DNA from: a virus
Length of the DNA stretch: 22,664 nt
Direction: 5' to 3' (one strand)
Virus record (IMG/VR): IMGVR_UViG_3300030339_000252
Coordinates: 1-22,664 of that record
Shown here: in pieces, positions 3,614 to 22,245 of the stretch
Layout of the letters: the number at the start of each line of letters is the position of its first letter
Numbering within the stretch: the first letter of the stretch is position 1
Position numbers and translations under genes: made by a program
Notes under the pieces: model-generated
What the model saw: only the letters and a program-made list of their open reading frames with translations
The model's database searches: none
What the model was told of the DNA's origin: nothing

Positions 3614-3649
3614 CAAAAGAAATCATTACCTCAAGCCATTTAAAGGACA
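3614..3649 (-). promoter_or_regulatory. Late-promoter-like element D, upstream of the tape-measure gene
   Basis: On the minus strand TGTCCTTTA (3649-3641) is followed after exactly 19 nt by TTCTTTTG (3621-3614). The final G is 26 nt before the tape-measure ATG. The same 9-mer and spacing occur at three other operon heads in the window. The second half is a weaker match to the Bacteroidetes TAnnTTTG box than copies A and B. Confidence 0.6.
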
Positions 3650-3650
3650 C

Positions 3651-3679
3651 AAAAAAGCCCTCGTTTCACAACGAAGGCT
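3651..3679 (-). terminator. Rho-independent terminator after the tail-tip/lysis operon
   Basis: On the minus strand AGCCTTCGTT, a short loop (GTGA-containing) and AACGAGGGCT form a 10-bp stem with one G-T pair, followed by six T. It lies 37 nt after the stop of the last lysis-region gene and directly before the tape-measure promoter-like element. Confidence 0.85.
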
Positions 3680-3716
3680 TAAATAAAATAAACAATATTA
3701 ATACTAATGAAAAAAA

Positions 3717-4118
3717 CTAAACATGTCGGGCAGTACTTCTAATATTATGCGTATATCCGTATTCTGTTTGATAATTATTCAGCTTCCTATTGAGCCGTAT
3801 ATTATAACTAGAGTCATTGAATTTAATAGATGTAGCATTACCATTTATCGCCAGGCTTGGACCCCAGTCCGGATTCCTCCAGGTATCCGATTTCACCATT
3901 TGCACTGTGATTACTTTTTCTGCCGGAAGCGTTACTGCAGTAAAATTATAAACCGCCGTAGCAGCTTCAAAATTTACAGCCATTACCGGCATAGGTGTGA
4001 TTTGCGTAATCACGAACGATTTTTGAATCATGTCAGTGGCCGTAGTCGCTGCATGGGTTGCCATTGTCGCCGAGAAAGTCAGCGAAAACAGCGCTAAGAA
4101 AAAAATCAATCTTTTCAT
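3717..4118 (-). CDS. Small secreted protein of unknown function
   Basis: 133 aa from the ATG at 4118. The frame stays open further upstream, but the chosen start begins a classic signal peptide (MKRLIFFLALFSLTFSATMA, cleavage near the following THAATT) and lies just 32 nt after the preceding gene, so the longer version is unlikely. The mature part of about 110 residues has no motif I recognise; its C-terminal half is rich in Asn, Thr and aromatic residues. It is the last gene before the terminator, directly after the lysis genes. It could be an accessory lysis factor or a surface-modifying moron expressed by a lysogen. Confidence 0.65.
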   Translation of the reverse strand: MKRLIFFLALFSLTFSATMATHAATTATDMIQKSFVITQITPMPVMAVNFEAATAVYNFTAVTLPAEKVITVQMVKSDTWRNPDWGPSLAINGNATSIKFNDSSYNIRLNRKLNNYQTEYGYTHNIRSTARHV

Positions 4119-4150
4119 AAGAGTAAAAATTTTTGTTGTTAATAATAAAA

Positions 4151-4777
4151 CTATTTGTTGTTTGAAGTGACAAATTTTGAAATAAATTTCTGCCAAATAA
4201 AGGTCAACTTTCCGGCCGGTGTAAACTTCCATGCAAGTTGGAATAAAACACAAATACAAATCCCCGCAAGAAACCATTTCCACCAGTTACTCGCTTGTTC
4301 GGTTTTCGTTGAAACTTCACTTTTAAGTAAAGCATTCACTTTGCTCAGGCTATCAATTTTCAAATCATACGACTTTAAATAGGTGGCAAATAAGTTAGTC
4401 ACTTCTTTTGCAGAATATAGCGTTTCAGTTGATTCAACAGCTTTTTTACCTTTACCTTTTACGGTTGTTTGTAAAGTTTCAGACACTTTAAGCGGTCTGT
4501 TAGGTGTACTGTCAGTGTATAGTTTAGGATCATAAACTATCGTGTGAATAGTCGTTTCTTCGGTCTCATTTTCATCTACTGAAGCAGTTGATTTGACTGA
4601 TTCAGTAGATTTTTTCTCTGAATTGACACTAGTTGTCAAATTCGTTTTTTCGTCAGAAACTTTTGTTACCTCAGTATTTGTCTGTAGCTTTTGAGTAACA
4701 TTCGTTTTCACAATTTTCTTAGCCGGTGCACACCCGACCAGGAGAATTACCAGGAATAAGATTAGTTTTGTTTTCAT
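4151..4777 (-). CDS. Probable unimolecular spanin (lipoprotein with C-terminal membrane helix)
   Basis: 208 aa from the ATG at 4777, which forms an ATGA overlap with the endolysin stop; an ATG two codons upstream (4783) is also possible. The N-terminus is a textbook lipoprotein signal (MKTKLILFLVILLVGC, Cys16 as lipidation site). Residues about 20-160 are Thr/Ser/Lys/Glu-rich, compatible with an extended periplasmic rod. Near residues 165-183 a membrane helix follows (WWKWFLAGICICVLFQLAW), then a basic tail. A protein anchored in the outer membrane by lipid and in the inner membrane by a C-terminal helix is the defining layout of u-spanins (T1 gp11 type), which fuse the two membranes at the last step of lysis. 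Position right after holin and endolysin supports this. The sequence itself is not recognisably similar to T1 gp11. Confidence 0.72.
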   Translation of the reverse strand: MKTKLILFLVILLVGCAPAKKIVKTNVTQKLQTNTEVTKVSDEKTNLTTSVNSEKKSTESVKSTASVDENETEETTIHTIVYDPKLYTDSTPNRPLKVSETLQTTVKGKGKKAVESTETLYSAKEVTNLFATYLKSYDLKIDSLSKVNALLKSEVSTKTEQASNWWKWFLAGICICVLFQLAWKFTPAGKLTFIWQKFISKFVTSNNK

Positions 4778-5316
4778 GTCCATCTACTTATTTTGTAAAA
4801 TTGTTTTTTAAGACGTTTTTTCTTGAAACACCCATTTCCTTCACGGCTGCCGTCTTTATTCGTATTTCCTTCAACCGTTATGGCCATGGAAGAATCAGGC
4901 GGCCACTCATCTATAAATCCTTCGTGAGCTATTCTTCCCATATCTACAAAGAAAAGTCCGAAAACATCCGCCGTTCGTGGGGTTAGATTATTCTTTTTCC
5001 CGCGTGTGTAAATCGTTTTTTTTGCAGGAAACCAATTCGGGCAGTAACCTGAAATAATTGCTTTTACTCCAGCTTCCACAAACGAGAAGCAAACAGTCGC
5101 AGCGCACCAGGGATCACCCTTTTTTATGCCGGCAGCTTTTTGAATTTTCTCAACCATAAATCCATCATTGCGTCCGGTAAGTTCTTTAACTCCAATCAGC
5201 GACGTATATACTTTTTGAACTTTATTGATGCGTTCTAGCTCACTATCATTGCCATAGCAACTAATAGAACAACAATAAAGCAGTAAATAGAGTAAGTAAG
5301 TTTTTGTCTTTGCCAT
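4774..5316 (-). CDS. Exported endolysin, CHAP-like cysteine peptidase/amidase
   Basis: 180 aa. Residues 1-20 form a hydrophobic export signal (KTYLLYLLLYCCSISC) with a possible but poor lipobox at Cys20. The catalytic domain has the CHAP-like pattern: Cys71 in DPWCAATVCFSF, His131 in GRIAHEGFIDEW, and Glu149/Asn151 in ITVEGNTN, spaced as expected for the Cys-His-Asn/Glu site that cuts peptidoglycan peptide bonds. Similar exported single-domain lysins are known in phages of Gram-negative hosts. The first 82 nt lie inside the 3' end of the upstream holin-like gene. The next plausible start is far inside the domain and would lose the signal, so the overlap appears real. The ORF ends in an ATGA overlap with the spanin gene. 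Confidence 0.8.
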   Translation of the reverse strand: MAKTKTYLLYLLLYCCSISCYGNDSELERINKVQKVYTSLIGVKELTGRNDGFMVEKIQKAAGIKKGDPWCAATVCFSFVEAGVKAIISGYCPNWFPAKKTIYTRGKKNNLTPRTADVFGLFFVDMGRIAHEGFIDEWPPDSSMAITVEGNTNKDGSREGNGCFKKKRLKKQFYKISRWT

Positions 5317-5657
5317 GGTGTGATATTATTTTTAAATTCATCTTTCATTTCCGTAGTCAGATACTTATGATGTGTGCCGAATATGGTCTTATAAGCCAAC
5401 CATGCCACAGCCAGGAATACAAAAAGCATGAGCGGTGGAACGATCAATAATTGAAATATCCCGGCATCAAAAATACCTGAAGAAGGATCATACCATCTCA
5501 GAACGGGAACGCTAATGGCAAACACCAGCAATGCTGCCGGAACAGTCAGTAAAACATGATGTTTTTTAAAAAACGCCTTCACTTTTCGCTTTACACATTT
5601 TAATTTCTCGGATATTAAATCCTTTGCTTTCTGAAATAATGCTTTAATCGTTTCCAT
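5235..5657 (-). CDS. Candidate holin, three membrane segments
   Basis: 140 aa. A basic amphipathic N-terminus (KCVKRKVKAFFKKHH) is followed by three hydrophobic segments at about residues 35-53, 67-90 and 120-138 (last one YSIYCFIVVLLVAMAMIV). Small size, basic N-terminus, multiple helices and position immediately before the endolysin fit a holin, the protein that permeabilises the inner membrane and times lysis. The last 27 codons overlap the endolysin signal sequence in another frame. I do not recognise a specific holin family, so the call rests on topology and neighbourhood. Confidence 0.6.
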   Translation of the reverse strand: METIKALFQKAKDLISEKLKCVKRKVKAFFKKHHVLLTVPAALLVFAISVPVLRWYDPSSGIFDAGIFQLLIVPPLMLFVFLAVAWLAYKTIFGTHHKYLTTEMKDEFKNNITPWQRQKLTYSIYCFIVVLLVAMAMIVS

Positions 5658-5659
5658 AT

Positions 5660-5983
5660 CTATTTTTCTATTATAAAATTTTCAAACTCCTTTTTGAAAT
5701 CACCGACGGCTTTATTCATAGCCGCCAACTCACCGTTTAATAAAGCCTTTCCTTTTTCGTCTCTAAGCTTTTTCAGGCTTTCAAGAGCCAGTTTTGTACT
5801 TTCGATCGATAGAAGAACTCCCTTGGTGTGCATCTGATGCATACACAAGTGTTTTTGCTCTTTTGCCCGAAATTCTTTTAGTTTTGCTTCTTCAGTTTCA
5901 TCGCGTTTTCGTTGATTTTTATTGAGCATAAACATAAAAATACCGACTATAAGAGGCGATATGAGTAATTTCACAATTTCCAT
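5660..5983 (-). CDS. Small one-helix membrane protein with coiled-coil tail, lysis cassette
   Basis: 107 aa. One N-terminal membrane helix (about residues 5-20, LLISPLIVGIFMFML) is followed by a strongly charged stretch (NKNQRKRDETEEAKLKEF) and a Lys/Glu/Leu-rich helical remainder. It lies 2 nt upstream of the holin candidate. This shape fits a holin partner, antiholin or inner-membrane spanin subunit. The basic residues just after the helix favour a cytoplasmic C-terminus, which argues against i-spanin. No family is recognised. Confidence 0.6.
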   Translation of the reverse strand: MEIVKLLISPLIVGIFMFMLNKNQRKRDETEEAKLKEFRAKEQKHLCMHQMHTKGVLLSIESTKLALESLKKLRDEKGKALLNGELAAMNKAVGDFKKEFENFIIEK

Positions 5984-5988
5984 ATTTT

Positions 5989-6237
5989 TTAATTTATCTG
6001 ATAAATAATTATACTCTCCTTACAAGGAATTGCATCCGCTCCATAGAAACTCAAATTGTTAGGTTTCTTCAAATTTGAGATGCTCCCGCCTAAAAATGTA
6101 AGCAAATTTGGTGTAAGGTATGCCTTACCACTTCCACTAACTCCTAAAAATGTAAGCAAATTAGGTGGAAGATAGACTTCACCACTTCCACTTACCCCAA
6201 CGAACTGAAGCTTTATATTAGGTGCTAATCTAGCCAT
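5989..6237 (-). CDS. Small protein with an 18-residue tandem repeat
   Basis: 82 aa, function unknown. Residues about 13-51 are built from an 18-residue unit, GVSGSGEVYLPPNLLTFL then GVSGSGKAYLTPNLLTFL, followed by a third partial start GGSISN. At DNA level the period is 54 bp. Glycine turns alternating with hydrophobic strands suggest stacked beta structure, as in fibre or spike tips. It sits 1 nt after the beta-helix spike gene and before the lysis genes, so a tail-spike accessory, trimer tip or chaperone is possible. No signal peptide or membrane helix. Confidence 0.55.
   Translation of the reverse strand: MARLAPNIKLQFVGVSGSGEVYLPPNLLTFLGVSGSGKAYLTPNLLTFLGGSISNLKKPNNLSFYGADAIPCKESIIIYQIN
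6089..6196 (-). repeat. 54-bp tandem repeat inside a small gene
   Basis: Two copies starting at 6089 and 6143 on the plus strand. They share CCTAAAAATGTAAGCAAATT and ACCACTTCCACT, with differences mainly in the middle. The period is a multiple of three, so the copies add or remove exactly 18 residues without a frameshift. Confidence 0.85.
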
Positions 6238-6238
6238 A

Positions 6239-7858
6239 CTAGTCTGCGTAATGAATGTTTAATTCAAGTTTAAAATACTTGATATTTATAGCTTGTAAAC
6301 CACAGTTAGCTTGAGAACCTAATTCAAAGTTTTCGCTATCAGCTTCGGTAACTGCCCAATCCCCATAAATATCTAAATCTTTATTCGTAGTAACTCCAAA
6401 TACTCCAAGTAAGTCAGAGAATAAAACTGGTTGCTCTGATTTTGCTCCTGATATGTGATACCACATCTTAGTCACTCCAGTAAACTTAGCCGAAAAACGT
6501 GGGAAAGCTGATGCTGCCAACGCATTATCAAAAGGTATAACTTCAACAGTCTCTACTGGAATGTTGCCTGCTGTAAACGGTTGAAGCTTCCCAAACCAAA
6601 AACGCTTAGTGATGCCCGACTCTAAGTAAGAGTTCATTCCATCAAATGAATACCCTCTAGGATAGAAAAAAACATCTGTAACTACTCTATTCCAGTACTG
6701 GTCTTCATATTGATTACTGGCATAGAAGTTACCCTCTGAATCTCTTGTGAGTATGTTTGGAACATTAGCTGTGTCAACTCCACTGGCATCAACATCAGTA
6801 ATATCATTGAATGTCATCCCACCCAGATTACCTGAATAAGCGCCCACGAACGCGCCTGTGTTCGACATATAAAGTGCTTGGTTATCCGCATTTAAGTATA
6901 GTGAATAATCTATTGGAGTACCTCCATTATAACGATTAAATATAGGAGTTCCATTAATGTCATCTACTACCTTACAACTCTCTGAATTATCTGGTTTAAG
7001 GGCAAATAACGTATTTATGCTATTCAGTAAATAAGTTTTATTTGTGGAATCTAGGGTATCTGCATACGCAGTTAATGAATCCCTAATATCTTGAATCCAT
7101 GTAGCCTCATCATTTCCATAAGTGATTGGAATAACTGAACCGTTCCACAACCATTGAGTTAGTTTTCTAAATAAACAATAGTAAAACTTTGTCACATCTG
7201 TAGTGGTGTTAGAGAATCTAAATAAGTCCACACAATTTGTTATTATGCTGTTACTTACTATGTTATTCAACCCACTATTACCATAAGCTCCAGCATAATT
7301 CTTATAATTAATAATTGTGTTATTGACGACGCCAATACTTATGTCGTTTATTAAAGTTGTTGAAGGACACCCACATGCTTTAAAATCTTCAATTAAGCAA
7401 TTCCGAATAAGAGCTTTTACGTCATAAATCCCAGTATCTCCTGTTAATGATTTTATCCTACAATTTATGATTTGTGAATTTCCACTAGCAATACCAACTA
7501 AAATATTAATTTTTATATTATGAATACATTGAATATAGCCATTACCAGCACCTCCATAACTTACAGTTCCTACTACTTCGGCATCATCTCCATCCCCAAT
7601 TAAATTTTTACCTGCTGCTAAAAGTTCAATATTTTCAGTACATTGCCCTCTAATAATTAAATTTTGTAGTGATAATGTTTTTGCGTAGGTAATAGTTCCA
7701 ACGGGATTACTCCTAGCACCATCATTAGTGTCTAAACCAACCCCCGCAAAAATGTGAAGGGTATTTGCATCCGTCAAGGGAGTAATTTGTTCTACCCAAA
7801 TGCCTGACGAAAATACTAACTTTTTAAAAAGCTTAGTTCTAAATAATTGATTGCTCAT
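6239..7858 (-). CDS. Right-handed beta-helix tail spike / receptor-binding protein
   Basis: 539 aa. Near residue 38 it has HIFAGVGLDTNDGARSNP, the motif that typically opens the helix of pectin-lyase-fold phage spikes, then short repeated strands ending in Asn, Ile and Val (IINCRIKSL, LIRNCLIEDF, VVNNTIINY, IVSNSIITN) to about residue 230. A different, probably globular C-terminal region follows. Such proteins are trimeric and bind or cut surface glycans. No catalytic residues can be assigned. It lies between small tail proteins and the lysis genes in the tail-tip operon, a usual spot for the host-range determinant. Confidence 0.7.
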   Translation of the reverse strand: MSNQLFRTKLFKKLVFSSGIWVEQITPLTDANTLHIFAGVGLDTNDGARSNPVGTITYAKTLSLQNLIIRGQCTENIELLAAGKNLIGDGDDAEVVGTVSYGGAGNGYIQCIHNIKINILVGIASGNSQIINCRIKSLTGDTGIYDVKALIRNCLIEDFKACGCPSTTLINDISIGVVNNTIINYKNYAGAYGNSGLNNIVSNSIITNCVDLFRFSNTTTDVTKFYYCLFRKLTQWLWNGSVIPITYGNDEATWIQDIRDSLTAYADTLDSTNKTYLLNSINTLFALKPDNSESCKVVDDINGTPIFNRYNGGTPIDYSLYLNADNQALYMSNTGAFVGAYSGNLGGMTFNDITDVDASGVDTANVPNILTRDSEGNFYASNQYEDQYWNRVVTDVFFYPRGYSFDGMNSYLESGITKRFWFGKLQPFTAGNIPVETVEVIPFDNALAASAFPRFSAKFTGVTKMWYHISGAKSEQPVLFSDLLGVFGVTTNKDLDIYGDWAVTEADSENFELGSQANCGLQAINIKYFKLELNIHYAD

Positions 7859-7860
7859 CT

Positions 7861-8568: not shown

Positions 8569-11500
8569 TTAGTCATTTACATTTAATACTCCATAGGTAG
8601 GAGTCACATCTTCATAATATTGAGTTTTCACCCAGCCTTTTCCATTGTGAATCCATTTTTTCACCTCATTCGTTATAGGCTCTACATATACGAATATCTG
8701 TCCGGGGTCTTCAAAATCGGGAATGATAAATCCGGTACGTAGAATACTTTCAAAATACATAACAGGGCTGTAATAATATTGATTTCCTACTTTCGCATAC
8801 CCACGTATGTAATAAGTAGCTGTGCCTAGCTGTGTAATTCTTTTGCTGAATGTATCCGTACCTTCCGTTACCGGAACTTTGAAGGCATATTGAGCCGTTG
8901 GTACCTGAATATTGGTAGAATAAAGAAAACCTTTTTCAGCTATCGTATTACCATTGGCAGCAAGTTCGGCATTTATATCGAATGAATTTTCCGTTAGTTT
9001 AGTCATGGTGATTGACACAGCGGGATTTCCTTCCGATACGGCCAAGGTATCAACTTCTATTTCGTCACCCCAGCTGTAACCTTCCGAATTCAGTGCAAAA
9101 GGTCTGATAAAGTAATGCGTTGCAGGAGTTAAACCCGATAGGATTAAGCTGTAATTCAGACTATCAGGATCGTTAGGTCTAACAATTAAGTCCGTTTCCA
9201 ACAAATCCCTGTCAGTAGGAATGGTGACCAGACTATACACTATTCCTTCATCGGTTGGTAATGGCAATGCCTGAAGCGTCACATGTACCGAAACGGTAGT
9301 ATCAGTGGAGTCCAGCACTTCGCCTAGCGTAAATATTGGAACGAAGGGCAAAATCGGATCGAACGTGAAACTGCTTTGGTCTCCCCAGAATAGTTGGTCA
9401 TCTACCAGCGTATAAGGTCGCGCATAATATAGATTTTCTTCTACCAACCCCACAAAATCCACAACATCGCCCACAACTACGGCATAGTCATCGGTTTTTG
9501 TGGTCTGAGTGGTAGGTATCGGAGCTACATCCCAGCATACGCCAACTTCTTGAATAATATTACCTCCATTTGAAAGGATGCGTACTCGTTGTGATACATT
9601 ATTGGTATTATCCATGGTAGGCGCATCGGCCACCACACTCGGAGCTACAATAGTATCATTGGCAGTAGTGAAATTCAGCACCGAACTTTCATAAGTCGCA
9701 TCAGCCACCAGATAAGATTTCATGCTGTATTGCGTATTTTTCAATAAACCGGTAACCGTTTTATTTATAGTTCCGATGGTGGTAACTCCGGCACAAATTA
9801 CGGTAGTCCAATCACTGTCAACCGATTTTTTGTATTTAAAACCTATTTCGGTAGCTGTTTTACCGGCTAGTGAACTAACAGCACCATTCAATTGCACAGA
9901 AGTATTCAGCACATTGGTTGGATTACTTACCGATAAACTAGGATTTACAACTGCCTGAAGTGTGGTAAAACTAATTACATCGCTCTGATAAGCCGTTCCC
10001 TTGCTGTTGGTTGCGAAACCTCGTAACCAATACTGAGTGGCAGGGGTTAGCCCGGTTATTTCATGCGTAAAATCATTTGAAATGGGTGTTTTAATAAACT
10101 TGCTGTTGGCCGTAGTCGGATTGGGACTGGTTCCCCAACATACACCAATTTGAGTAATGGGCGAACCACCATCATTATCCATTTGAATTCGTACTTTTAC
10201 ACGGGTAGAAGTATTTTCAAACGGAATACCCGAATAAACATGAGGAAGTTGAACATCCACCAACGTAGTAAAATCAACACCGGCACCGGTACTTATTTGA
10301 TACGTAGTTGGTGCAGTATTGAAATACTCCACTCCATTAATTTTGATAAAGAAAGTATTGTAATACTTAGTATTAGCTGTAAGTCCGGTAATTATCTTCT
10401 CACAACTGTTTGAATTGATAGTAGCAATAACCCGGGTACCTCCATTCAAATGAGGATTACTCATTGTTCCATAATAAAATCCGGCTTCCTCAATGACATT
10501 ATCATACGGAGTAAACGAACCTCTTAATGTGGCAGAATTGATAGTGACATTATTGTGAATGCCTAGCGTCACAACAGGAGCCAGAAAAGCTGGCAACGTG
10601 GTTACACCATCTACTATTTCGTTGGTTGAAAAATCAGCACTGTAAAGCCTGGTTTCGGTAGAATATTGATACGTATTATCCGCAAATTTCAAATAGAAGC
10701 AAATAAAAAATTTTACTCCAGAGCTTAATCCGGTTATTTTTTTAGTCCAGCCATTGATTGAATCTCTATATATACTATCAGCTGTTACTTTTTGGCTGTA
10801 ATCACCTATAGTTGGAGTAGGATTGGTATTGGAAACAAGAAATCCTTTTTCAATGATTTCTTTGTCCATAAAAGTATGGCTACCGGAAGCGGTTAATTCT
10901 GTTTTAGACACACTCATTACTTCGATAGTATCCAATACATTATGATCGGTAATTGGAGCGATATAATCATATCCTTTCCAATTAGTTCGGAACTGAGGCA
11001 AAGCAATGCCGGGAATAACTTCAATATACCATGCTTCCATGGCTGCCTTAATCCAATCGGCCTTTACACCACCCACACTGAAATAATTATCCCAGTACTG
11101 CGTATCGTAACCGGTAATAGCTCGGTTCAATGAATCATATTCACCGTCCAAGTTAGGAAAATCCTGCGCTGATCGTGATCTGTGACCAAAATCCCGCCAT
11201 ACCGGAGCAATCAACGAATTAATCCCGGCATCAGTTTTGGCTATAATACCATTATAAGTGGGATCAGTAAGAAACGATATATCAGTCTTATCATACTGGT
11301 ATTCATGATAAAAGCGTGGGTATAAATCCTGTCCCCAAAGTGGGTTAAATGATTTATATTCAAAGCATTTAATTCCGTAATTAGTCACACCATTTGCAGC
11401 TACCAAATATCTCCAGTTACCGGTAAACCTACCGAAAACCATACCTTTCACACCCTCAATACCTGCAATTGAAAACACAGCAGGATTATCATTTAGCGCG

Positions 11501-11652
11501 ATCCCAGACAGCAAGTTAGGATTAACGGTCCGCATGGCAATAGTTGTTGCATTGCTTTCATAAACCAAATTCCCATTCGCATACACCAATTTACCATCTA
11601 TCGACGGTTCATAATTGGTATAGGTTTTTCTTATTTCGTTCGTATTTGCCAT
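8569..11652 (-). CDS. Large tail fibre-like protein with about seven FN3-like repeats
   Basis: 1027 aa. A unique N-terminal part (about 1-235) is followed by seven repeats of roughly 100 residues. Each has the Bacteroidetes FN3-like layout: a strand with (E)xGF/GVCW, a PxPT loop, then a GLTPxTxYYxRxF segment and a terminal strand. Examples are QIGVCWGTSPNPTTA, EVGVCWDVAPIPTTQ, GLTPATQYWLRGFA and GLTPATHYFIRPFA. A short C-terminal module (IHNGKGWVKTQ) ends the protein. FN3-type domains on virions are thought to aid weak binding to surface glycans or to act as spacers. Start is 6 nt after the previous gene. No signal peptide, which favours a virion protein over a cell adhesin. Confidence 0.75.
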   Translation of the reverse strand: MANTNEIRKTYTNYEPSIDGKLVYANGNLVYESNATTIAMRTVNPNLLSGIALNDNPAVFSIAGIEGVKGMVFGRFTGNWRYLVAANGVTNYGIKCFEYKSFNPLWGQDLYPRFYHEYQYDKTDISFLTDPTYNGIIAKTDAGINSLIAPVWRDFGHRSRSAQDFPNLDGEYDSLNRAITGYDTQYWDNYFSVGGVKADWIKAAMEAWYIEVIPGIALPQFRTNWKGYDYIAPITDHNVLDTIEVMSVSKTELTASGSHTFMDKEIIEKGFLVSNTNPTPTIGDYSQKVTADSIYRDSINGWTKKITGLSSGVKFFICFYLKFADNTYQYSTETRLYSADFSTNEIVDGVTTLPAFLAPVVTLGIHNNVTINSATLRGSFTPYDNVIEEAGFYYGTMSNPHLNGGTRVIATINSNSCEKIITGLTANTKYYNTFFIKINGVEYFNTAPTTYQISTGAGVDFTTLVDVQLPHVYSGIPFENTSTRVKVRIQMDNDGGSPITQIGVCWGTSPNPTTANSKFIKTPISNDFTHEITGLTPATQYWLRGFATNSKGTAYQSDVISFTTLQAVVNPSLSVSNPTNVLNTSVQLNGAVSSLAGKTATEIGFKYKKSVDSDWTTVICAGVTTIGTINKTVTGLLKNTQYSMKSYLVADATYESSVLNFTTANDTIVAPSVVADAPTMDNTNNVSQRVRILSNGGNIIQEVGVCWDVAPIPTTQTTKTDDYAVVVGDVVDFVGLVEENLYYARPYTLVDDQLFWGDQSSFTFDPILPFVPIFTLGEVLDSTDTTVSVHVTLQALPLPTDEGIVYSLVTIPTDRDLLETDLIVRPNDPDSLNYSLILSGLTPATHYFIRPFALNSEGYSWGDEIEVDTLAVSEGNPAVSITMTKLTENSFDINAELAANGNTIAEKGFLYSTNIQVPTAQYAFKVPVTEGTDTFSKRITQLGTATYYIRGYAKVGNQYYYSPVMYFESILRTGFIIPDFEDPGQIFVYVEPITNEVKKWIHNGKGWVKTQYYEDVTPTYGVLNVND

Positions 11653-11952: not shown

Positions 11953-13103
11953 TATATTAATATTTTAAAATCAGTAGAAGTTACTATTTCATTATCCGTT
12001 GTTCCGAGTATTTCATCTCCTTTTTGAAGTAAAGGACTATAATTGTTATCCGTATCAAGCAATTCAAAAATTATCGAAATGGGTACCGGAACTGAAGCAG
12101 TTGATTGAAACAAGCTACTATCTGTTTTTATTTTAACCGCATATTCTTCACCGTTAGCCATCAAATAACACTCTTTACTTATCAAAGCATCGATTAGGAA
12201 TAACCGTTCCTCATTCGTTTTATATCCAATTTCTCCCTTATACACATTTATAAAGGTTTTCCGTTGTGCCGTCGAAACAAAATCTGATATATCCTGATCC
12301 CATTCCGATATCGTCGATTGTTCCGAAAAAGCAGGGTTGTAATCTATCAAACCCTCTATTGAAATTATTTCAAGCACTCCCAAAGAGTTTCGAAATTTCA
12401 AAAAATAATCATGTTTTTCCGTTACTTCAGTAATTACAATTGTACAGGCGTAACCACCAGTCGATGTCATCACATCAAATTGAGAAATCAATTTATTTTT
12501 TGAACTCATTATCTGCTGACGGATTGCATTGAAATCTATTTCTTGTAAACTTTCAATTGCATCATTGCTGTGATCATAAGTAACTAATATTTCACCCGCC
12601 GATTTCAACACAAAATTAAAGCCTTGAGCATAATACTTTAGAAGAAGTAATTCATCTTCAGGAATAGTTATTATTCGGTTGTTGGTCCGCGTACTCAAAA
12701 AGAAATTCCGGGAAACGTTTTTCAATTTCCATTCGAAAATATCAGAGCCGGCACTAACTAACTTTCGTTGAAGCAACTTACTTATTCCACCACCGTAAAC
12801 TGTGAACTCAACCAGATATAAACTATTTCCTTCATTATTTTCGTCCACATAATTGTTTCCTTCACTATCTACAGTTACCATTTTAGCCGATAATATACCG
12901 GCTGTAGTTGCAAGGTTTTTAAATAACTCAGATACATCTACCTGTGCAGTTCCGGTAATTGAATACGCACTTCCATCATATAATAATTCAGAATAATTTA
13001 CGCCTGAATATACTCTATACCGTGTCGAAGCATTTACACCCGTCCATATATTTAGCAATATTGGATTTCCGGCTAAAAATCGAATCGTGTCGTTTGCTCC
13101 CAT
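11952..13103 (-). CDS. Tail-tip structural protein, unknown family
   Basis: 383 aa, no signal peptide or membrane helix, mainly beta-strand composition (opens MGANDTIRFLAGNPILLNIW). It is flanked by a 73-aa protein and the glycine-linker protein at the head of the tail-tip operon, upstream of fibre and spike. Position and size suggest a distal-tail or baseplate component. I recognise no motif that fixes the role. Confidence 0.6.
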   Translation of the reverse strand: MGANDTIRFLAGNPILLNIWTGVNASTRYRVYSGVNYSELLYDGSAYSITGTAQVDVSELFKNLATTAGILSAKMVTVDSEGNNYVDENNEGNSLYLVEFTVYGGGISKLLQRKLVSAGSDIFEWKLKNVSRNFFLSTRTNNRIITIPEDELLLLKYYAQGFNFVLKSAGEILVTYDHSNDAIESLQEIDFNAIRQQIMSSKNKLISQFDVMTSTGGYACTIVITEVTEKHDYFLKFRNSLGVLEIISIEGLIDYNPAFSEQSTISEWDQDISDFVSTAQRKTFINVYKGEIGYKTNEERLFLIDALISKECYLMANGEEYAVKIKTDSSLFQSTASVPVPISIIFELLDTDNNYSPLLQKGDEILGTTDNEIVTSTDFKILI

Positions 13104-13105: not shown

Positions 13106-13327
13106 TTAATATGTCTGAATAATGAAATGTTTAACCATTTCAATACTGATCTGTTGAGTCTCAAAAAAATCCCTGCGTTCCGCACTCGGATGACTTACAA
13201 ATTCAAATAAATCAGCACTTGTCAACCAGGCAAAACCCTTCCACGCTCTATAAGCTGTTAGCATCGTGTCTGCATCTATTATTTGCGGAGATGTTACCGG
13301 AGTATTTTGGTTTTGTTGTAAAATCAT
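13106..13327 (-). CDS. Small first gene of the tail-tip operon, unknown function
   Basis: 73 aa from the ATG at 13327; a TTG at 13333 could add two residues. It ends 2 nt before the next gene. The C-terminal two thirds look helical (TAYRAWKGFAWLTSADLFEF...). The late-promoter-like element B ends only 4 nt upstream of this ATG, so if that promoter is used the mRNA would be essentially leaderless or translation would begin at a later Met (about residue 21). Confidence 0.5.
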   Translation of the reverse strand: MILQQNQNTPVTSPQIIDADTMLTAYRAWKGFAWLTSADLFEFVSHPSAERRDFFETQQISIEMVKHFIIQTY

Positions 13328-13330: not shown

Positions 13331-13366
13331 CAAAAATATAATATTACTATTCGTATCTAAAGGACA
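13331..13366 (-). promoter_or_regulatory. Late-promoter-like element B, upstream of the tail-tip operon
   Basis: On the minus strand TGTCCTTTA (13366-13358), 19 nt, then TATTTTTG (13338-13331), a perfect Bacteroidetes TAnnTTTG -7 box. Unlike the other three copies, no hairpin terminator precedes it; the upstream gene stops 7 nt before the element. Confidence 0.65.
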
Positions 13367-15036: not shown

Positions 15037-15705
15037 TCACTCAGGTAAAAATATACTATTCATATTTACAGCTATATCAAGACTGTAGTTAGCCACTATA
15101 TCAGCCAGTTCGTCCATATTATTACGGATAATATCATTAAACCAGTATTCGGATGTTCGGTTTCCTGTTCCCATTCTGCCCTGACTACTTTCTTTGGTAG
15201 TATGTATTTTCCCGTACTTATCTGTCCATTTGCTGCCGGTAAGTCCGCCGTAACCACGCCCGGCTCCTTCGTGTAAGTAAACTCCGTGCCGTGCCACCGA
15301 AAAGCCAACCGATCGGGTTTCAAGCTTGTAGGCTTTATCAAACCTGAGATTCAATTTTATTGAATCGCTCAGGCGTGGAAACTCGTCTGAAATAGGACGA
15401 TCTTCATGACCAAAGCGCGTTTGTGCCGATTGCTTGAGTAATGCTTCTACTTTTATGCCCCAGTTCCTTACGCCTTTATTGAAGTTATTTACAGATTCAA
15501 TATCTTTTACCCGGAGAAACATGTCCGTATCACTTTCGGAAATGAAAGTTATACGAGGATTATAATTTGGAACTACAATGGAAGGTATCTGTATATGTCC
15601 GGCACGGGATATCCTGACCAGTTGCTTGAATGAATTAGCGTTCATGCTCGTTTTAGCATCAACCCAATCCGAAGTTGTCCATTCCTGTAGTTCGCGACCT
15701 ATCAT
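15037..15705 (-). CDS. Tail completion/neck protein, possibly HK97 gp10-like
   Basis: 222 aa. The central and C-terminal part has RFGHEDRPISDEFPRLSDSI, a basic stretch, then ARHGVYLHEGAGRGYGG, the kind of pattern (helical lead, arginines, V-Y-x-x-E/H-G loop) found in HK97 gp10-type proteins that close the head-tail junction. It overlaps the upstream gene by ATGA and is followed directly by the large tail protein. Length is somewhat above the usual 110-160 aa because of an N-terminal extension. The assignment is by pattern and position only. Confidence 0.5.
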   Translation of the reverse strand: MIGRELQEWTTSDWVDAKTSMNANSFKQLVRISRAGHIQIPSIVVPNYNPRITFISESDTDMFLRVKDIESVNNFNKGVRNWGIKVEALLKQSAQTRFGHEDRPISDEFPRLSDSIKLNLRFDKAYKLETRSVGFSVARHGVYLHEGAGRGYGGLTGSKWTDKYGKIHTTKESSQGRMGTGNRTSEYWFNDIIRNNMDELADIVANYSLDIAVNMNSIFLPE

Positions 15706-16205
15706 GATTCAGCTACCCAATAGTCTTCAATAATCTTATAATTTACGCCATGCTGGAGTTGAAATCCTATGATCACTCCATATAGGTTATCACCAATTGG
15801 CCCGATACTGGCAATGGTGAATGAGCTGTTCAAAAGTCCGGTTAATCCTTTCTGGAATTTTCGACTTTCGGCAATAAGTTTTGCCTGTATCTGAAGTGCA
15901 TTGGCTTCGCATATAGCCTGAGCATTAAGTATGTCGGATGGATCATCATTCTTTGCCGGCATTATCAGCATAAAGAAAAATTGCGGTTTCTTGAGTAATG
16001 CTTCAGCATCGTTATCTTCGAATGTTGAATCTTTACCGTCGATTGCTACCAATACCGGATAGTTTATTTCCGATAACCGGTTGCTGATACTGGCCAGCGT
16101 GTCGGAGTTCGGTGCTTTATGAAATGCTTTTTCAGCTTTTGGTTGGAAAAGTTTCATTGTTTTGGATAGATCCAAACCATAAGCGAAGTGATCATATTGT
16201 TCCAT
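15702..16205 (-). CDS. Possible tail terminator / neck protein
   Basis: 167 aa, soluble, no signal peptide. Alternating beta and helix with PVLVAIDGKDSTFEDND near residue 50 and FFFMLIMPAKNDDPSD near 77. It is the first gene after promoter element C and overlaps the gp10-like gene by ATGA. Size and pairing with a gp10-like protein fit a tail-terminator (gpU-type) protein that caps the tail, but no conserved motif is seen. Confidence 0.5.
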   Translation of the reverse strand: MEQYDHFAYGLDLSKTMKLFQPKAEKAFHKAPNSDTLASISNRLSEINYPVLVAIDGKDSTFEDNDAEALLKKPQFFFMLIMPAKNDDPSDILNAQAICEANALQIQAKLIAESRKFQKGLTGLLNSSFTIASIGPIGDNLYGVIIGFQLQHGVNYKIIEDYWVAES

Positions 16206-16230: not shown

Positions 16231-16266
16231 CAAAAAAAGCCACAATCAAGTGGCTTTTAAAGGACA
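16231..16266 (-). promoter_or_regulatory. Late-promoter-like element C, upstream of the neck/tail unit
   Basis: On the minus strand TGTCCTTTA (16266-16258), 19 nt, then TTTTTTTG (16238-16231), 26 nt before the ATG at 16205. The -7-like part lacks the A of TAnnTTTG and doubles as the T-tract of a hairpin lying inside the spacer, so this copy is the weakest promoter candidate on its own. Confidence 0.5.
16232..16257 (-). terminator. Hairpin with T-tract inside the spacer of element C
   Basis: On the minus strand AAAGCCAC, loop TTGATT, GTGGCTTT, an 8-bp stem running into seven T. It reads as a second terminator after the antirepressor gene, but it sits between the two halves of the promoter-like element. 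Confidence 0.7.
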
Positions 16267-16267
16267 T

Positions 16268-16291
16268 AAAAAAGGAGAATTCTCCCTTTTT
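16268..16291 (-). terminator. Bidirectional hairpin at the antirepressor stop codon
   Basis: AAAAAGGGAGAATTCTCCTT on the minus strand is a near-perfect palindrome centred on GAATTC, flanked by A and T runs on both sides, so it could end transcription in either direction. It overlaps the TAA stop of the antirepressor gene and touches the TGTCCTTTA element downstream. Confidence 0.6.
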
Positions 16292-16826
16292 ATTTCTCGA
16301 ATGGTATTTCAATTGATTTATTTGCTAACCGCCATTCTTCAATTGTCATCCGGCGCGTGACATTGATATTCTTTTCAATGTTTTTCAAAATCCCATCGGC
16401 AATTCTGAAATTTGTTTTTGCAGTTTCTCGTTGATCCAATAATTCGTCGGTTACTTTTTTTTGCTGAGCGAGGAAAATTTGTGGTTCGGCAAAGTGACTA
16501 TACAATGCCCGATAGCATTCAACTTGATATTTTGCCACGGCTTCCTGAGCTTCCGGCTTTACGTTTTTCGGGTTAATGGTAAACAGCCATCCGAATATAA
16601 ATTCATAGGGCAAACATACCATTTCATACTCTTTTCCATCACTTCCAGTTGTTGGGCTCAGCCCAACAACTGAACTCAAAAATTCATGCTCTTTTAACTT
16701 AGAATATTGAGTAGGATAATCGATTCCTAAAGCATCGCAAATTGGCTTAATTGGAATCAATTTTTCAGTTTCGTCAGTAGCAATAATTACTACATTGTTG
16801 ATCGTTGCAATTTCATTTTTGTTCAT
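16290..16826 (-). CDS. Phage antirepressor, P22 AR-N-type domain
   Basis: 178 aa from the ATG at 16826; an in-frame ATG at 16868 falls in the promoter region and is unlikely. Residues about 6-110 match the P22 antirepressor N-terminal domain: INNVVIIATDETEKLIPIKP, CDALGIDYPTQYSKL, then YEMVCLPYEFIFGWLFTINP and VKPEAQEAVAKYQ. The C-terminal 65 residues are charged and helical and are not a KilA-C domain I recognise. Antirepressors bind and inactivate the prophage repressor, or control other phage genes. It has its own promoter and terminators and lies between structural operons, a position that could link induction to late expression. A perfect 13-bp inverted repeat lies within the coding region at 16646-16672. 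Confidence 0.8.
   Translation of the reverse strand: MNKNEIATINNVVIIATDETEKLIPIKPICDALGIDYPTQYSKLKEHEFLSSVVGLSPTTGSDGKEYEMVCLPYEFIFGWLFTINPKNVKPEAQEAVAKYQVECYRALYSHFAEPQIFLAQQKKVTDELLDQRETAKTNFRIADGILKNIEKNINVTRRMTIEEWRLANKSIEIPFEK
16646..16672 (-). repeat. Perfect 13-bp inverted repeat inside the antirepressor gene
   Basis: CAGTTGTTGGGCT, one C, AGCCCAACAACTG on the plus strand. The arms are fully complementary with a 1-nt centre. It encodes the segment SVVGLSPTT. There is no T-tract on either side, so it is not an ordinary terminator. Confidence 0.85.
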
Positions 16827-16865
16827 TTTTCTTAATTTTAAATGGTTGATAATAGAATTATTGCA

Positions 16866-16901
16866 CAAATGTAATGTAACTATTTGTTAATCAGATAGTT
16901 A
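16866..16901 (-). promoter_or_regulatory. Antirepressor promoter with operator-like dyad
   Basis: On the minus strand TACATTTG (16873-16866) is a perfect TAnnTTTG -7 box, 39 nt upstream of the ATG. No clear -33 TTTG is seen at the normal distance. Instead a 7-bp inverted repeat (TAACTAT ... ATAGTTA, 16877-16901) covers the expected -33 region and could be a repressor or activator site. Confidence 0.55.
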
Positions 16902-18155: not shown

Positions 18156-18185
18156 GATATAGTTTTTTATTGTTTTATAATTAAA

Positions 18186-18518: not shown

Positions 18519-18530
18519 AAACATAAATTT

Positions 18531-18626: not shown

Positions 18627-18632
18627 GATGCA

Positions 18633-18697
18633 CAAAGATATAAAAAATGTTTAAACATTGTGCAATCCATGCACAACATCGTATAATACTGCACAAC
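18633..18697 (-). promoter_or_regulatory. Promoter with repeated TTGTGCA operator-like sites
   Basis: On the minus strand TATCTTTG (18640-18633) is a perfect TAnnTTTG box, with ATTG about 22 nt upstream. GTTGTGCA occurs at 18697-18690 and 18677-18670 (20 nt apart, same helical face), TTTGTGCA at 18636-18629 overlapping the -7 box, and the inverse TTGTGCAA on the plus strand at 18658-18665. This arrangement suggests a repressor operator array for the accessory genes. Confidence 0.5.
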
Positions 18698-18704
18698 TAC
18701 GAAC

Positions 18705-18742
18705 AAAAAAAAACCGTTCCGAACTTCACAGCCCAGAACGGT
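18705..18742 (-). terminator. Strong terminator after the portal operon
   Basis: On the minus strand ACCGTTC and GAACGGT form a 7-bp stem around a 16-nt partly paired loop, followed by nine T. It follows the 18792 stop by about 50 nt. The loop is nearly identical to that of the terminator upstream of the portal operon. Confidence 0.85.
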
Positions 18743-18791
18743 ATCAACCTTTAAAAAATAGTCATGTACAAATCACAAAGAAAACAAGTAT

Positions 18792-19589
18792 TTATGGAGT
18801 GGCAGTTTCTTTTTCTTCTTGCTCAAGCATATAGTCGAGTGAAAAAAGTATGTTATATAACATATCTTGCTTGTAAGCACGTTTCTTTTCCGGATCGGCT
18901 TTGGCAATATAGTCAAGCAGTTTCTGTTGTCCATCGTATGGGTTACCGGTGGCAGCTTCGCCACCGCTAAATACCCGGTCGAACTTTTCGGCAATAAAAC
19001 GGCAGCTGCCTATCCAAAACCAAATGGTCAGAATCACCACTTCCGGCTTCAGGCGTTTCATATATTCCAGATTCAGATCATCCGGATTAAACTGGCTTTT
19101 GTCTCTCCTGAACATACACCCAATCCAGGCATAAATCGCTTCAGGTTTTTTTTCCTTCATTACATCGTATGTCTGAAGGTAAATATATTGGTTATAAATC
19201 AAATCGGTCATTCCTGTTTTTGGTCCATAGAATTTACGTCCACGAATTTTGATTTCAGGATATTGATTTACGGTTAACCGGTTGTCCAAAAAACAACGTC
19301 CATCCTTATCCGGTTCGGTAAATAGGTAATCGAAAGCAGCTGCTGCACCGGTTACATCATTGGCCGTAATAGCAAAAATGTTTTTATCAATCTTCACACG
19401 GAAGTATCCCGGATTCTTCATCCGCTTTACCACAGCTCCGAGGCAGATAAACAGCATTTTGACTTTAATTTCCTGTATCGGTAATTCTGTACCAACTAAC
19501 CTGGATAAACTTATAAGTTGATTCCTGGTCATTTCGTCCATCTTTCCCGGCAGAGAAAAAGTATAATCACCGATATGAAGTGTTTTCAT
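18792..19589 (-). CDS. Conserved phage protein, possibly tail-assembly chaperone-like
   Basis: 265 aa, soluble. It opens MKTLHIGDYTFSLPGKMDEM and continues with TRNQLISLSRL, a layout (short strands, LPxxxxEMT, helix) that recalls tail-assembly chaperone-like proteins of Bacteroidetes phages. A middle helical part contains MTDLIYNQYIYLQTYDVM and a C-terminal part KPEVVILTIWFWIGSCRFIA. Its ATG overlaps the upstream stop (TAATG) and it closes the portal operon. Chaperones normally sit directly before the tape-measure gene, which here lies 15 kb away, so this role is uncertain. Confidence 0.5.
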   Translation of the reverse strand: MKTLHIGDYTFSLPGKMDEMTRNQLISLSRLVGTELPIQEIKVKMLFICLGAVVKRMKNPGYFRVKIDKNIFAITANDVTGAAAAFDYLFTEPDKDGRCFLDNRLTVNQYPEIKIRGRKFYGPKTGMTDLIYNQYIYLQTYDVMKEKKPEAIYAWIGCMFRRDKSQFNPDDLNLEYMKRLKPEVVILTIWFWIGSCRFIAEKFDRVFSGGEAATGNPYDGQQKLLDYIAKADPEKKRAYKQDMLYNILFSLDYMLEQEEKETATP

Positions 19590-20530
19590 TATCCGAATGA
19601 ATTAAAAATTTTCATATCAGCCGAATTGAAATCCATAGCCGAATTGATCGGCTCAATACCAAGCTCCATAGCGTACTTATTTAAAGTTTGCTGTATTTTG
19701 TTGTAGTAAAAAACGGCTTGGTCGGAAAAGAAATTCCCCTCATTTTGAGGATCGGAATAAAGTGGCCGGATAAGCGGTTTGTACTCCGGTGTTCCTGATT
19801 CGGTACGGTTCAGTTTACTCGCCTGGCTTGTGTGAAGCTCCGCTGTCTTACAAGCCACAAATCTTTGAACGGCAACAATCAGAGCCTTTTCTATGTCTGT
19901 TTGTGTATCGTTCAATTTTTCCCGGATAGTTGTGTCCAGTATATCTCCCAAAAGTTCGGTGATATAACGCAATTCAATCATGCTCATAGTCGGACGGAAA
20001 CTTTCAAAAGTCAATCGGCTGTAGTCGATATCAACCAACCCAATTTCTTGAAACTGCGTAGCAGATTGAATGTAATTGCCACCGCGTAGGGTATAGAACC
20101 GGCTGTTTGTCCATTCCGGAAAATCTGCCGCGTTCGCTTCCAGGTATTCAAGTACCTGATCGAGATATTTAAAACCTCTTCGTTCCAGGCTTTCTTCTAC
20201 TTTGCCAATTTTGGTATCTGAAGCTGCTACCGATTCACCTTGTTTAGACTCAACTGTAAATCCTTTATCGCCAAACCGAACGGATAATTCAGCATTCCCA
20301 AGCCATATGGCCAATGGTCCAAGTGCTTTCTGGACTAAATTATATAGCGGTTGATAATCTTCATCCAGTTCGTCAGCTTCAAGCGCTTCCACCAGCTGCG
20401 TACCCAGGTAATGATTTAAAAAAATATCCCGAGCCGTTTGAAGAAACGGTTCAACCCGTTCGAAAGGAATTGAAGCATTAATGCTTACCGTTTTTCGAAG
20501 TTGATCTATTGTACTTATAATTGCTGCCAT
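19589..20530 (-). CDS. Head-tail connector-like protein (resembles DUF6712)
   Basis: 313 aa, soluble and mostly helical. It opens MAAIISTIDQLRKTVSINAS, then FERVEPFLQTARDIFLNHYLG and a long helical part ending in KIQQTLNKYAMELGI. It resembles the conserved Bacteroidetes protein family annotated as DUF6712, as far as I can recall it. It lies 3 nt after the portal gene and probably adds to the connector below the portal. The function is inferred from position alone. Confidence 0.6.
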   Translation of the reverse strand: MAAIISTIDQLRKTVSINASIPFERVEPFLQTARDIFLNHYLGTQLVEALEADELDEDYQPLYNLVQKALGPLAIWLGNAELSVRFGDKGFTVESKQGESVAASDTKIGKVEESLERRGFKYLDQVLEYLEANAADFPEWTNSRFYTLRGGNYIQSATQFQEIGLVDIDYSRLTFESFRPTMSMIELRYITELLGDILDTTIREKLNDTQTDIEKALIVAVQRFVACKTAELHTSQASKLNRTESGTPEYKPLIRPLYSDPQNEGNFFSDQAVFYYNKIQQTLNKYAMELGIEPINSAMDFNSADMKIFNSFG

Positions 20531-20533
20531 AAT

Positions 20534-21943
20534 TTAAACTTTTTGATTTCCAACTGATTTAATTTGTCCGGTTCCATTGTCGACAGTGGTAAGCATAATA
20601 TTCGGTACCACGAAATGAATATCCGGATCCCACTTATTTATTTCCTTCACGATATAGAGTGGAAGGACCAACAAATCACGAATCGGTTTCATCATGGCTT
20701 GCTTGATAATAAACAATTCCCTGGCTTCCGTACCGTTTATGCTCCCAGAATTTCCCGAAGCTCCGATTATGGAAGGATGAATTTCCATGGCGTAACAGAT
20801 AGCGTCTGTTACTTCCTGAGAATCTTTCAGATATTCGCCACCGGATAGTTTATTGTCAATTGGTTTGATAATGATATCTTGAGTCTCAAATCCTTTAATT
20901 CGGTCATAATCAAACTCAGACACAAACGATTTACCGGCATTTTCTTCACCGGATAGAAAATCATTCATATCCTTCAGGAACTTTTTCCGACGTGCCAGTT
21001 TTGCTTTCACATCGGTATCAGGAATTCCTTCCGACTTGAATAATTTCGTCCAAAAATCTTTGTGAATGGTGACATGGAATTTCAAAACCATTTGATTTTG
21101 AATCAATGCTTTCCGTAATTTCGGAATGGCACAGGCGAAATCATACAATCCGGATTCGAAAATAGCCCACCAGTAAGGTTTTCCGTTGTAGTATCGTCCG
21201 GGTGTTGGTTGCATCAGTTGCACGATATAACTGAAGTCTTTTGGAACTTCAGTTTTACCTTTCATATTCAATGTAATTCCACGCCGTACCTTCAGGTCCC
21301 GAAGTGGAGTACGGCGATCGAGCAGTGGAGTTGCTTTTAAATCCGGTTGACTGCCTTCATGCCATTTGGTGGAATAACCATGGTATTCAATAACTCCGGT
21401 ATCAGGGTTTGCTTTTGAAATCCTGCTGTTCACCGATTCAACGGCATTTAGTTCTACAATTTTATTAGAATTATCTCTGGCAAAAATCAACTCACAATAC
21501 GATTCAAAAAAAACAACAATATCGTTGGCCCATTCCTGAGTACAATTGTTATAATTATTATCAAGCAGAAACTGGAAGATATCTTTTAGTTCGCTTGACA
21601 GCTGCTCAACAATTTTGATCTCTTTCGTAACCGGATCACGTTCTTTCTTTACCACCATGATTCCATCACCATATGCCATCTTACTATTAAATTGCACATT
21701 GGCGCCAAGTGTAGAATTGGCATAAACTTTATCCATCACTTCCACCGGTTGTTTATTCCCGATCCCACGTTGCACGAATTTTATTTGCTTGTTTTGCATG
21801 TTCGTCGGAGTAAGATCCTTTGTTGGAGTATTTGTGTCTCCAACCATTTCTTTCGAATCGGAAAATATAACCAACGCTTTACTACCTGATAAGTAAGCCG
21901 TATTCTCGAAGAGAAAAACCTCTGAGTCTGATTTTTTTGCCAT
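20534..21943 (-). CDS. Phage portal protein
   Basis: 469 aa. Portal-like order: an N-terminal wing with MAYGDGIMVVKKERDPVTKE, a central part with YYNGKPYWWAIFESGLYDFA, then QDIIIKPIDNKLSGGEYLKD before the stem helix, and a C-terminal signature EIHPSIIGASGNSGSINGTE followed by a long helix (IKQAMMKPIRDLLVLPLYIV). Portal proteins form the dodecameric ring at the capsid vertex through which DNA is packaged and ejected. It shares one base (TAATG) with the upstream gene's stop and is followed closely by the connector-like gene. No terminase or capsid gene is next to it in the window. Confidence 0.8.
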   Translation of the reverse strand: MAKKSDSEVFLFENTAYLSGSKALVIFSDSKEMVGDTNTPTKDLTPTNMQNKQIKFVQRGIGNKQPVEVMDKVYANSTLGANVQFNSKMAYGDGIMVVKKERDPVTKEIKIVEQLSSELKDIFQFLLDNNYNNCTQEWANDIVVFFESYCELIFARDNSNKIVELNAVESVNSRISKANPDTGVIEYHGYSTKWHEGSQPDLKATPLLDRRTPLRDLKVRRGITLNMKGKTEVPKDFSYIVQLMQPTPGRYYNGKPYWWAIFESGLYDFACAIPKLRKALIQNQMVLKFHVTIHKDFWTKLFKSEGIPDTDVKAKLARRKKFLKDMNDFLSGEENAGKSFVSEFDYDRIKGFETQDIIIKPIDNKLSGGEYLKDSQEVTDAICYAMEIHPSIIGASGNSGSINGTEARELFIIKQAMMKPIRDLLVLPLYIVKEINKWDPDIHFVVPNIMLTTVDNGTGQIKSVGNQKV

Positions 21944-22191
21944 TATATATAAACTTTAAATTCGTTGAACCTAGTAATTAAAATCTTACGGAAAGAATGA
22001 GGCTTGTTTTCCCCTTCAGGGATAATGTTTACAGTTGATCCTTTAGAATGAATAGTGGAGAACGTAGCATTATTATATGTTTTTAATTCTCCGTTCTTTT
22101 TAGCACATTGAAAACTGAACGGTTTCGGTTTCCCTTTTTCCTTCAACTCCATCAGTTCCCAAATCTTCGACTGTTTAATCAGTTTTTCCAT
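21943..22191 (-). CDS. Small protein upstream of portal, unknown function
   Basis: 82 aa, basic. It opens MEKLIKQSKIWELMELKEKG and contains PFSFQCAKKNGELKTYNNAT and FRKILITRFNEFKVYI. A mixed alpha/beta domain is likely. It is the first gene of the portal operon, 19 nt after promoter element A, and overlaps the portal start by one base. No motif identifies it. Confidence 0.6.
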   Translation of the reverse strand: MEKLIKQSKIWELMELKEKGKPKPFSFQCAKKNGELKTYNNATFSTIHSKGSTVNIIPEGENKPHSFRKILITRFNEFKVYI

Positions 22192-22209
22192 AATCTATCT
22201 TTTCAAGTT

Positions 22210-22245
22210 CAAAAATACTTGTCACTATACCGGCATTAAAGGACA
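22210..22245 (-). promoter_or_regulatory. Late-promoter-like element A, upstream of the portal operon
   Basis: On the minus strand TGTCCTTTA (22245-22237), 19 nt, then TATTTTTG (22217-22210), a perfect -7 box. After it comes AACTTG, similar to TACTTG after element D. The -7 G is 19 nt before the ATG. The best copy of the family. Confidence 0.7.

Follow-up and report, generated by a model that had tools for sequence, protein, structure and literature searches.

The IMG/VR virus record IMGVR_UViG_3300030339_000252 was analysed over its whole 22.7-kb length (22,664 nucleotides (nt), guanine-cytosine content 37.5%), referred to below as the window. A tape measure gene, an endolysin-like gene, a P22_AR_N antirepressor, a portal-like gene and a match to DUF6712 were detected among its proteins, and on these grounds the window is a tailed phage of Bacteroidota. 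The question raised by this locus is the meaning of a two-part element, an upstream box TGTCCTTTA followed at a fixed distance by a box of the Bacteroidota -7 type, which stands four times on the minus strand ahead of late genes. Our best explanation, which we regard as probable, is that the four elements form a single class of phage late promoters, in which a phage protein, most likely of a family designated cl9, would read the 8-bp core TGTCCTTT of the upstream box and host polymerase would read the -7 box.

Spaced Elements on the Late Strand

The four putative late promoters and one further copy of the upstream box are located as follows.

22210..22245, minus strand: putative late promoter 1, TGTCCTTTA at 22245-22237, 19-nt spacer, -7 box TATTTTTG at 22217-22210
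16231..16266, minus strand: putative late promoter 2, TGTCCTTTA at 16266-16258, hairpin-forming spacer, -7 box TTTTTTTG at 16238-16231
13331..13366, minus strand: putative late promoter 3, TGTCCTTTA at 13366-13358, -7 box TATTTTTG at 13338-13331
3614..3649, minus strand: putative late promoter 4, TGTCCTTTA at 3649-3641, -7 box TTCTTTTG at 3621-3614
12030..12038, minus strand: AGTCCTTTA inside a gene, no -7 partner, not counted as a promoter

An earlier interpretation of the window, the sequence-only reading, had claimed that each of the four copies of TGTCCTTTA is followed by a -7 box after exactly 19 nt, and all were found in place. It had also put the elements 4-26 nt before the first gene of a unit. 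This fits the distances between the last G of the -7 box and the start codon, which are 18 nt to the ATG of an 82-amino-acid (aa) gene at promoter 1, 25 nt to a 167-aa gene at promoter 2, 3 nt to the ATG at 13327 at promoter 3, and 25 nt to the tape measure gene at promoter 4. The arrangement at promoter 1 recurs in the portal relatives described below, and that at promoter 2 is kept in relatives as well. The fifth copy of GTCCTTTA, which is AGTCCTTTA at 12038-12030, is intragenic and, as had been noted, lacks a second half at the set distance, where TACTCGGA is found instead.

None of 100 dinucleotide shuffles attained the five matches observed when up to three mismatches were allowed. The two-part motif occurred 0.001 times per window on average, and once at most, in 2000 windows from a first-order Markov model, in agreement with the claim that four copies are not due to chance. 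When TGTCCTTTA with one mismatch was taken alone, nine occurrences were found against 7.7 expected, which is chance level. The weight comes from the exact core, fixed spacing, strand and position combined and not from TGTCCTTTA alone. A scan for sigma-70 promoters found 68 where 67 were expected.

Distribution beyond the Window

A set of 20 viral loci and two loci in metagenome-assembled genomes, one of Paludibacteraceae and one of Bacteroidales, was assembled by the portal protein alone, down to 41% identity and without using the motif. All 22 loci carry TGTCCTTT on the portal strand. Some are close relatives, so that the 42 late-strand copies (4.0 expected) are not all independent, 37 being unique; the other strand holds 2 (8.5 expected). 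A -7-type box, defined as [TC][AT]nn[TA]T[TC]G, stands exactly 20 nt after the core in 38 of the 42 late-strand copies and in none on the other strand. Among the matches listed for viral contigs, an open reading frame (ORF) starts within 40 nt of 68 of the 110 unique matches with the 19-nt spacer (N19), as compared with 7 of 79 for an 18-nt control (N18); two of these seven stand before genes of a family found after N19 sites too, and N18 may be an occasional variant. The first genes after N19 sites belong to recurring families, namely neck-region, tape measure and tail genes and an 82-96-aa gene before the portal. When 38 contigs were rescanned with one mismatch allowed, 37 of them had one to six sites, confined to a single strand within each, and the control gave one match overall.

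The 30 phage genomes that were fetched from among these have TerL in common and nearly all share the portal, and they therefore represent one large lineage. The element is not confined to the window phage and runs through a large lineage of Bacteroidota siphoviruses. In G009, L018, L019 and L023 the core lies on the late strand though the strict -7 pattern finds no motif. About 1 Gb of sequence from 295 Bacteroidales genomes yielded 8 matches, as compared with 24 for the reversed pattern, on which ground a host regulon was rejected; the element is not a host promoter.

The anatomy of the motif was examined in 31 genomes, the 30 fetched and the window (1.24 Mb). Their late strands hold 123 copies of TGTCCTTT (16 expected) and the other strands 21 (40 expected). 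A -7 partner follows at 20 nt in 87 cases and at 19 or 21 nt in three, with none on the other strand, and an ORF starts within 45 nt at 85 of 89 sites. With the partner held fixed, core positions 2, 3, 4, 6, 7 and 8 showed no substitution against 78 exact copies, position 5 was substituted twice and position 1 eight times. The ninth base varies (A 63, T 16, C 11 and G 5 at 95 sites). The proposal that an extended box takes the place of the usual -33 box was supported, with its extent corrected: the core is TGTCCTTT, and the terminal A of the sequence-only reading is one of several bases found there. TTT of the host -33 TTTG box is retained within TGTCCTTT, and the G of that box is avoided, as the ninth base is G at just 5 of the 95 sites. 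The 78 exact-core sites have TAnnTTTG at +20, the -7 box of Bacteroidota. This box allows A2 to become T and T5 to become A, and in other hosts it drifts to CATCTTTG or GAAATTTG with the core unchanged. Random placement or variable spacing, named beforehand as what would speak against a promoter, was not seen in the phages examined. Near-identical cassettes, with the same or almost the same spacer, occur twice in G315 (18765/19343), G307 (23835/25049) and G317 (13444/23400); the first G315 copy is not followed by an ORF start, and the pairs look like promoter duplications.

In Flavobacterium johnsoniae the -7 box extends from -12 to -5, and the start comes 4-5 nt after it (PMC6847099). Used as a ruler, this places TGTCCTTT at -40 to -33, and the start sites of the late promoters given here are deduced in the same manner. 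Leader lengths are bimodal, with the ATG 3-6 nt after the box at 27 sites and mostly 10-45 nt after it at the others. Leaderless or near-leaderless mRNAs are predicted for about a third of the late units, and the mRNA from promoter 3 is predicted to be leaderless or nearly so. The predicted group includes short tail-region genes and 90-96-aa genes before the portal. At some sites the 5' end of the predicted mRNA holds an inverted repeat that includes the start codon (TGCCATAAA...TTTATGGCA), as at about 16228-16200 in the window (CCATAA..TTATGG), G311 22174, G320 29405 and G002 32076; leaders with a stem of six or more pairs numbered 15, as compared with 7 in shuffles.

A Candidate Reader of the Core

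A protein that reads TGTCCTTT would be expected among the genes shared by these phages. The cl9 family (156-231 aa, typically about 166 aa) is present in 29 of the 30 phage genomes, a count that includes G317 and G332 after correction of an overlapping-ORF artefact; the sole genome without it, G327, is a fragment beginning near TerL. The gene lies between the primase region and the protease/capsid genes, at the junction of early and late regions. None of 79 promoters falls in the arc from primase to cl9, which makes up 14.7% of these genomes. It is the single near-universal family that could not be assigned to packaging, virion, replication or integration, and the single such family across the set that is also common to the marine Flavobacteriia phage Leef_1.

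The structural model of cl9 (predicted local distance difference test (pLDDT) 89, predicted template modelling score (pTM) 0.80) has a last long helix that comes after a short one and ends in a basic tail. D137, K141 and R145, the most conserved residues, are located in this last helix of the model. We read this region as a putative basic C-terminal helix-turn-helix. A Foldseek comparison of the model with the PDB gave no match at E <= 0.001, and sequence comparison gave no convincing one. Another family, cl21 (G310_006, G308_008, G002_019), was rejected as the activator since it is present in only 11 genomes. This protein of about 133 aa adjoins the primase, has the look of an N-terminal helix-turn-helix and matches weakly to PHROG 323 'D5-like transcriptional regulator', and is possibly a second regulator.

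When Bacteroidales prophage regions were found by cl9 alone, 29 copies of TGTCCTTT were on the cl9 strand and 6 on the opposite one. The best viral fold match of cl9 was a 157-aa protein of Leef_1 (E 7e-4), and the cl9 profile finds the Leef_1 frame 29499-29990 (E 1.7e-14), which holds a 157-aa gene just upstream of the protease/capsid genes. This phage has six TGTCCTTT on the gene strand (0.47 expected), before late genes, and none on the opposite strand. Both cl9 and the core are carried by Bacteroides phage BT-TP2, two Porphyromonas phages and MT835542. The BT-TP2 record labels its cl9 gene (gp8) 'transcriptional regulator', on grounds that are not in the record; putative late-promoter sites of this phage lie at 10591 and 25811. 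Neither cl9 nor the spaced motif was found in B124-14, phi11b or the examined half of crAss001.

Discussion

The elements constitute a promoter-like class that is apparent from nucleotide sequence: the core is invariant, the phase fixed, the placement on the late strand and before late units, and the motif absent from hosts. We infer with good support that they are activator-dependent late promoters read by host polymerase; cl9 is the best candidate for the late activator, a role that has moderate support. In the layout proposed for this class, TGTCCTTT would lie at about -40 to -33 and be followed, after exactly 20 nt, by a -7 box that may be TAnnTTTG, T-rich or weakened. Host RNA polymerase with its primary sigma would open the -7 box, and a phage-encoded protein would bind TGTCCTTT over the -33 region in place of the normal sigma region 4 contact. 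The late units would stay silent until the TGTCCTTT-binding protein is made, and late transcription would then be coordinated. The reader would most likely be cl9, encoded at the end of the early region and just upstream of the protease/capsid genes. The sequence-only reading had offered a phage-specific activator or an altered sigma contact, and cl9, as a putative helix-turn-helix family, would fit the activator role. It may displace sigma region 4, in the manner of MotA and AsiA in T4 (PMC2988021), or may supply an additional contact. A more far-reaching proposal, which we make tentatively and with some doubt, is that cl9 is a transcription factor of a new fold that replaces sigma region 4 at -33 on the divergent polymerase of Bacteroidota and reads a near-immutable 8-bp box in phages from gut Bacteroidales to marine Flavobacteriia, with some spacers doubling as the terminator of the previous unit.

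Several observations weigh against late promoters read by cl9. The family has no Pfam, PHROGs, NCBIfam or PDB relative, and for want of a known relative its DNA binding is read from a predicted structure and the look of the sequence. The contig ends before the expected place of cl9, which was not seen in the window phage. Shared descent confounds the joint presence of cl9 and the motif, as these phages have TerL and the portal in common too. Leef_1 has no recognisable downstream box at +20. Most of the 31 genomes were chosen for holding one exact motif, which is a selection bias; the portal-selected and cl9-selected sets are free of it.

An alternative sigma factor, of phage or host, that reads both boxes would account for the strict 20-nt spacing and the co-conservation of the boxes, which are what a dedicated sigma is expected to leave. 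Such a protein could be too divergent for domain models, and cl9 itself is possibly one. We consider this explanation unlikely. A phage sigma factor was sought in the 30 phage genomes and rejected: Sigma70 region 2 (PF04542) had matches in 0 of 30 genomes and region 4 (PF08281) none above the cut-off, in searches whose controls respond. The downstream box fits the primary-sigma consensus TAHHTTTG (PMC6847099), and the rarity of the motif in host genomes makes a host regulon for an alternative sigma improbable. Lower still do we rate the idea that TGTCCTTT is an operator at which a phage repressor would hold late promoters of a strong, host-like kind silent in the lysogen. Genes for integrases and repressors are present in these phages, and a core overlapping the -33 position would be ideal for steric block, but such a block needs no fixed phase to the -7 box, and the 8-bp core lacks the dyad symmetry typical of repressor operators. 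Avoidance of the host G at the ninth base also suggests a weak basal promoter in need of help.

The -7 box and the approximate geometry are those of the host, as would be the case if the elements were constitutive promoters of the ordinary primary-sigma type, with a -33 box of variant sequence and no need of a further factor. This reading is slightly less probable even than the operator. F. johnsoniae promoters show hardly any -33 conservation (PMC6847099). In the phages the promoters are found only downstream of cl9, and hosts seldom carry the motif. The TGTCC upstream of the -33 box is nearly invariant, and we know of no host consensus that contains it. The least probable explanation, to which we give very little credence, is an RNA-level element, that is, a terminator or a processing or stability signal and not a promoter. 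Of 95 spacers 15 contain a hairpin, and a terminator is often situated just upstream, but the other 80 have no such hairpin and share length alone; a fixed distance of 20 nt to TAnnTTTG, with a start codon 3-45 nt further on, is in keeping with a promoter.

Late promoters of the proposed kind can be compared with known systems. Primary-sigma promoters of Bacteroidota have TTTG at -33 and TAnnTTTG at -7 (Bayley 2000 and Vingadassalom 2005, as cited in PMC6847099). The phage elements have the -7 box in common with them, and an upstream box in the same position (with TTT at about -35 to -33). They differ in that the upstream box is the nearly invariant 8-bp TGTCCTTT with the G of TTTG avoided, degraded forms of the -7 box occur (TTTTTTTG, CATCTTTG, GAAATTTG) and the motif is rare in host chromosomes. 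At T4 middle promoters sigma is appropriated by MotA and AsiA (PMC2988021, PMC6755090). There too a host -10 type box is kept, a phage box at a constant position stands in for the host -35 type, and the set of promoters is dispersed; this anatomy is met here in sequence alone and is a likeness in working, not membership. The MotA box lies 12 +/- 1 bp from -10 and is tolerant of changes, whereas the element described here is spaced by 20 nt with almost no tolerance. In addition, the host sigma is the divergent primary sigma of Bacteroidota, the genes are late structural genes, and cl9 has neither a PDB fold match at E <= 0.001 nor a convincing sequence match that would make it a MotA homologue. 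The late regulators of Gram-positive siphophages (RinA / Ltr type, e.g. PMC13123087) are small proteins encoded just before packaging/head genes, as cl9 is, and are needed for late genes; here, in contrast, one to six promoters are dispersed over each genome, and no sequence relation was detected. By analogy, the class may work like T4 middle promoters or the Gram-positive late regulators, with a different box, spacing and protein. A search of the open-access literature returned no paper that describes the motif, a late activator in phages of Bacteroidota or the way in which their late genes are turned on, which is a weak negative, and the promoter class is apparently undescribed.

The motif TGTCCTTT-N20-TAnnTTTG marks late units across a large lineage of Bacteroidota siphoviruses, to which sequenced B. 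thetaiotaomicron and P. gingivalis phages belong, and late operons can be read directly from sequence by means of it. One candidate activator gene is named. The pair would offer a phage-specific promoter and activator for Bacteroides genetics, as well as insight into the redirection of the phylum's unusual primary sigma.

Hairpins and Genes of the Window

Terminator-like structures are found next to, or within, three of the putative promoters.

16235..16258, minus strand: terminator-like hairpin in the spacer of promoter 2, 9 pairs, 6-nt loop, with the -7 box as its T-run (hairpin scan)
3655..3680, minus strand: hairpin of 11 pairs resembling an intrinsic terminator, directly upstream of promoter 4 (hairpin scan)
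22246..22279, minus strand: terminator-like inverted repeat with a T-run (GTGCA...TGCACTTTTTT), directly upstream of promoter 1 (seen by eye)
16267..16287, minus strand: palindrome with a T-run (AGGGAGAATTCTCCTTTTTTA), directly upstream of promoter 2 (seen by eye)

The repeat at 22246..22279 is absent from the output of the hairpin scan, which had a loop limit of 8. Spacers forming stems of 6-10 pairs, such as ATAGCCCCTCACTCAGGGGCTATTTTTG, account for the 15 of 95 sites mentioned above, as compared with 0.3 in shuffles, and nested hairpins were found at G004 22922 and 28367, G315 18765 and 19343, and G326 24920 (oriented coordinates). At such sites the T-run of the predicted terminator doubles as the -7 box, and transcription of the upstream unit could end a few bases short of the start of the next one. 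Late units would often be insulated from one another by a terminator just upstream of the promoter or nested in it.

The genes that the elements precede, and the portal-like gene, are the following.

1..3588, minus strand: tape measure gene, first after promoter 4, truncated at the end of the contig, matched by PHROGs tape-measure families (best E 6e-42)
13106..13327, minus strand: 73-aa gene, ATG at 13327 (the TTG ORF start at 13333 was not used), no family match, first gene after promoter 3
15702..16205, minus strand: 167-aa gene of the head-tail region, no family match, first gene after promoter 2
20534..21943, minus strand: portal-like protein, 469 aa, related to the portal annotated in Polaribacter phage Leef_1
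21943..22191, minus strand: 82-aa gene, first after promoter 1, immediately upstream of the portal-like gene

The four units had been labelled portal, neck, tail-tip and tape measure. The last label is upheld by PHROGs, and the site at 22245 is followed by the 82-aa gene, with the portal-like gene next. For the 167-aa and 73-aa genes, 'neck' and 'tail-tip' are guesses from position. The P22_AR_N antirepressor-like gene (16290-16868, Pfam E 2.6e-31) sits between two late units and has a TACATTTG box at its start, without TGTCCTTT. The 1027-aa protein encoded at 8569-11652 contains fibronectin type III-like repeats and likely belongs to the virion surface or the tail.

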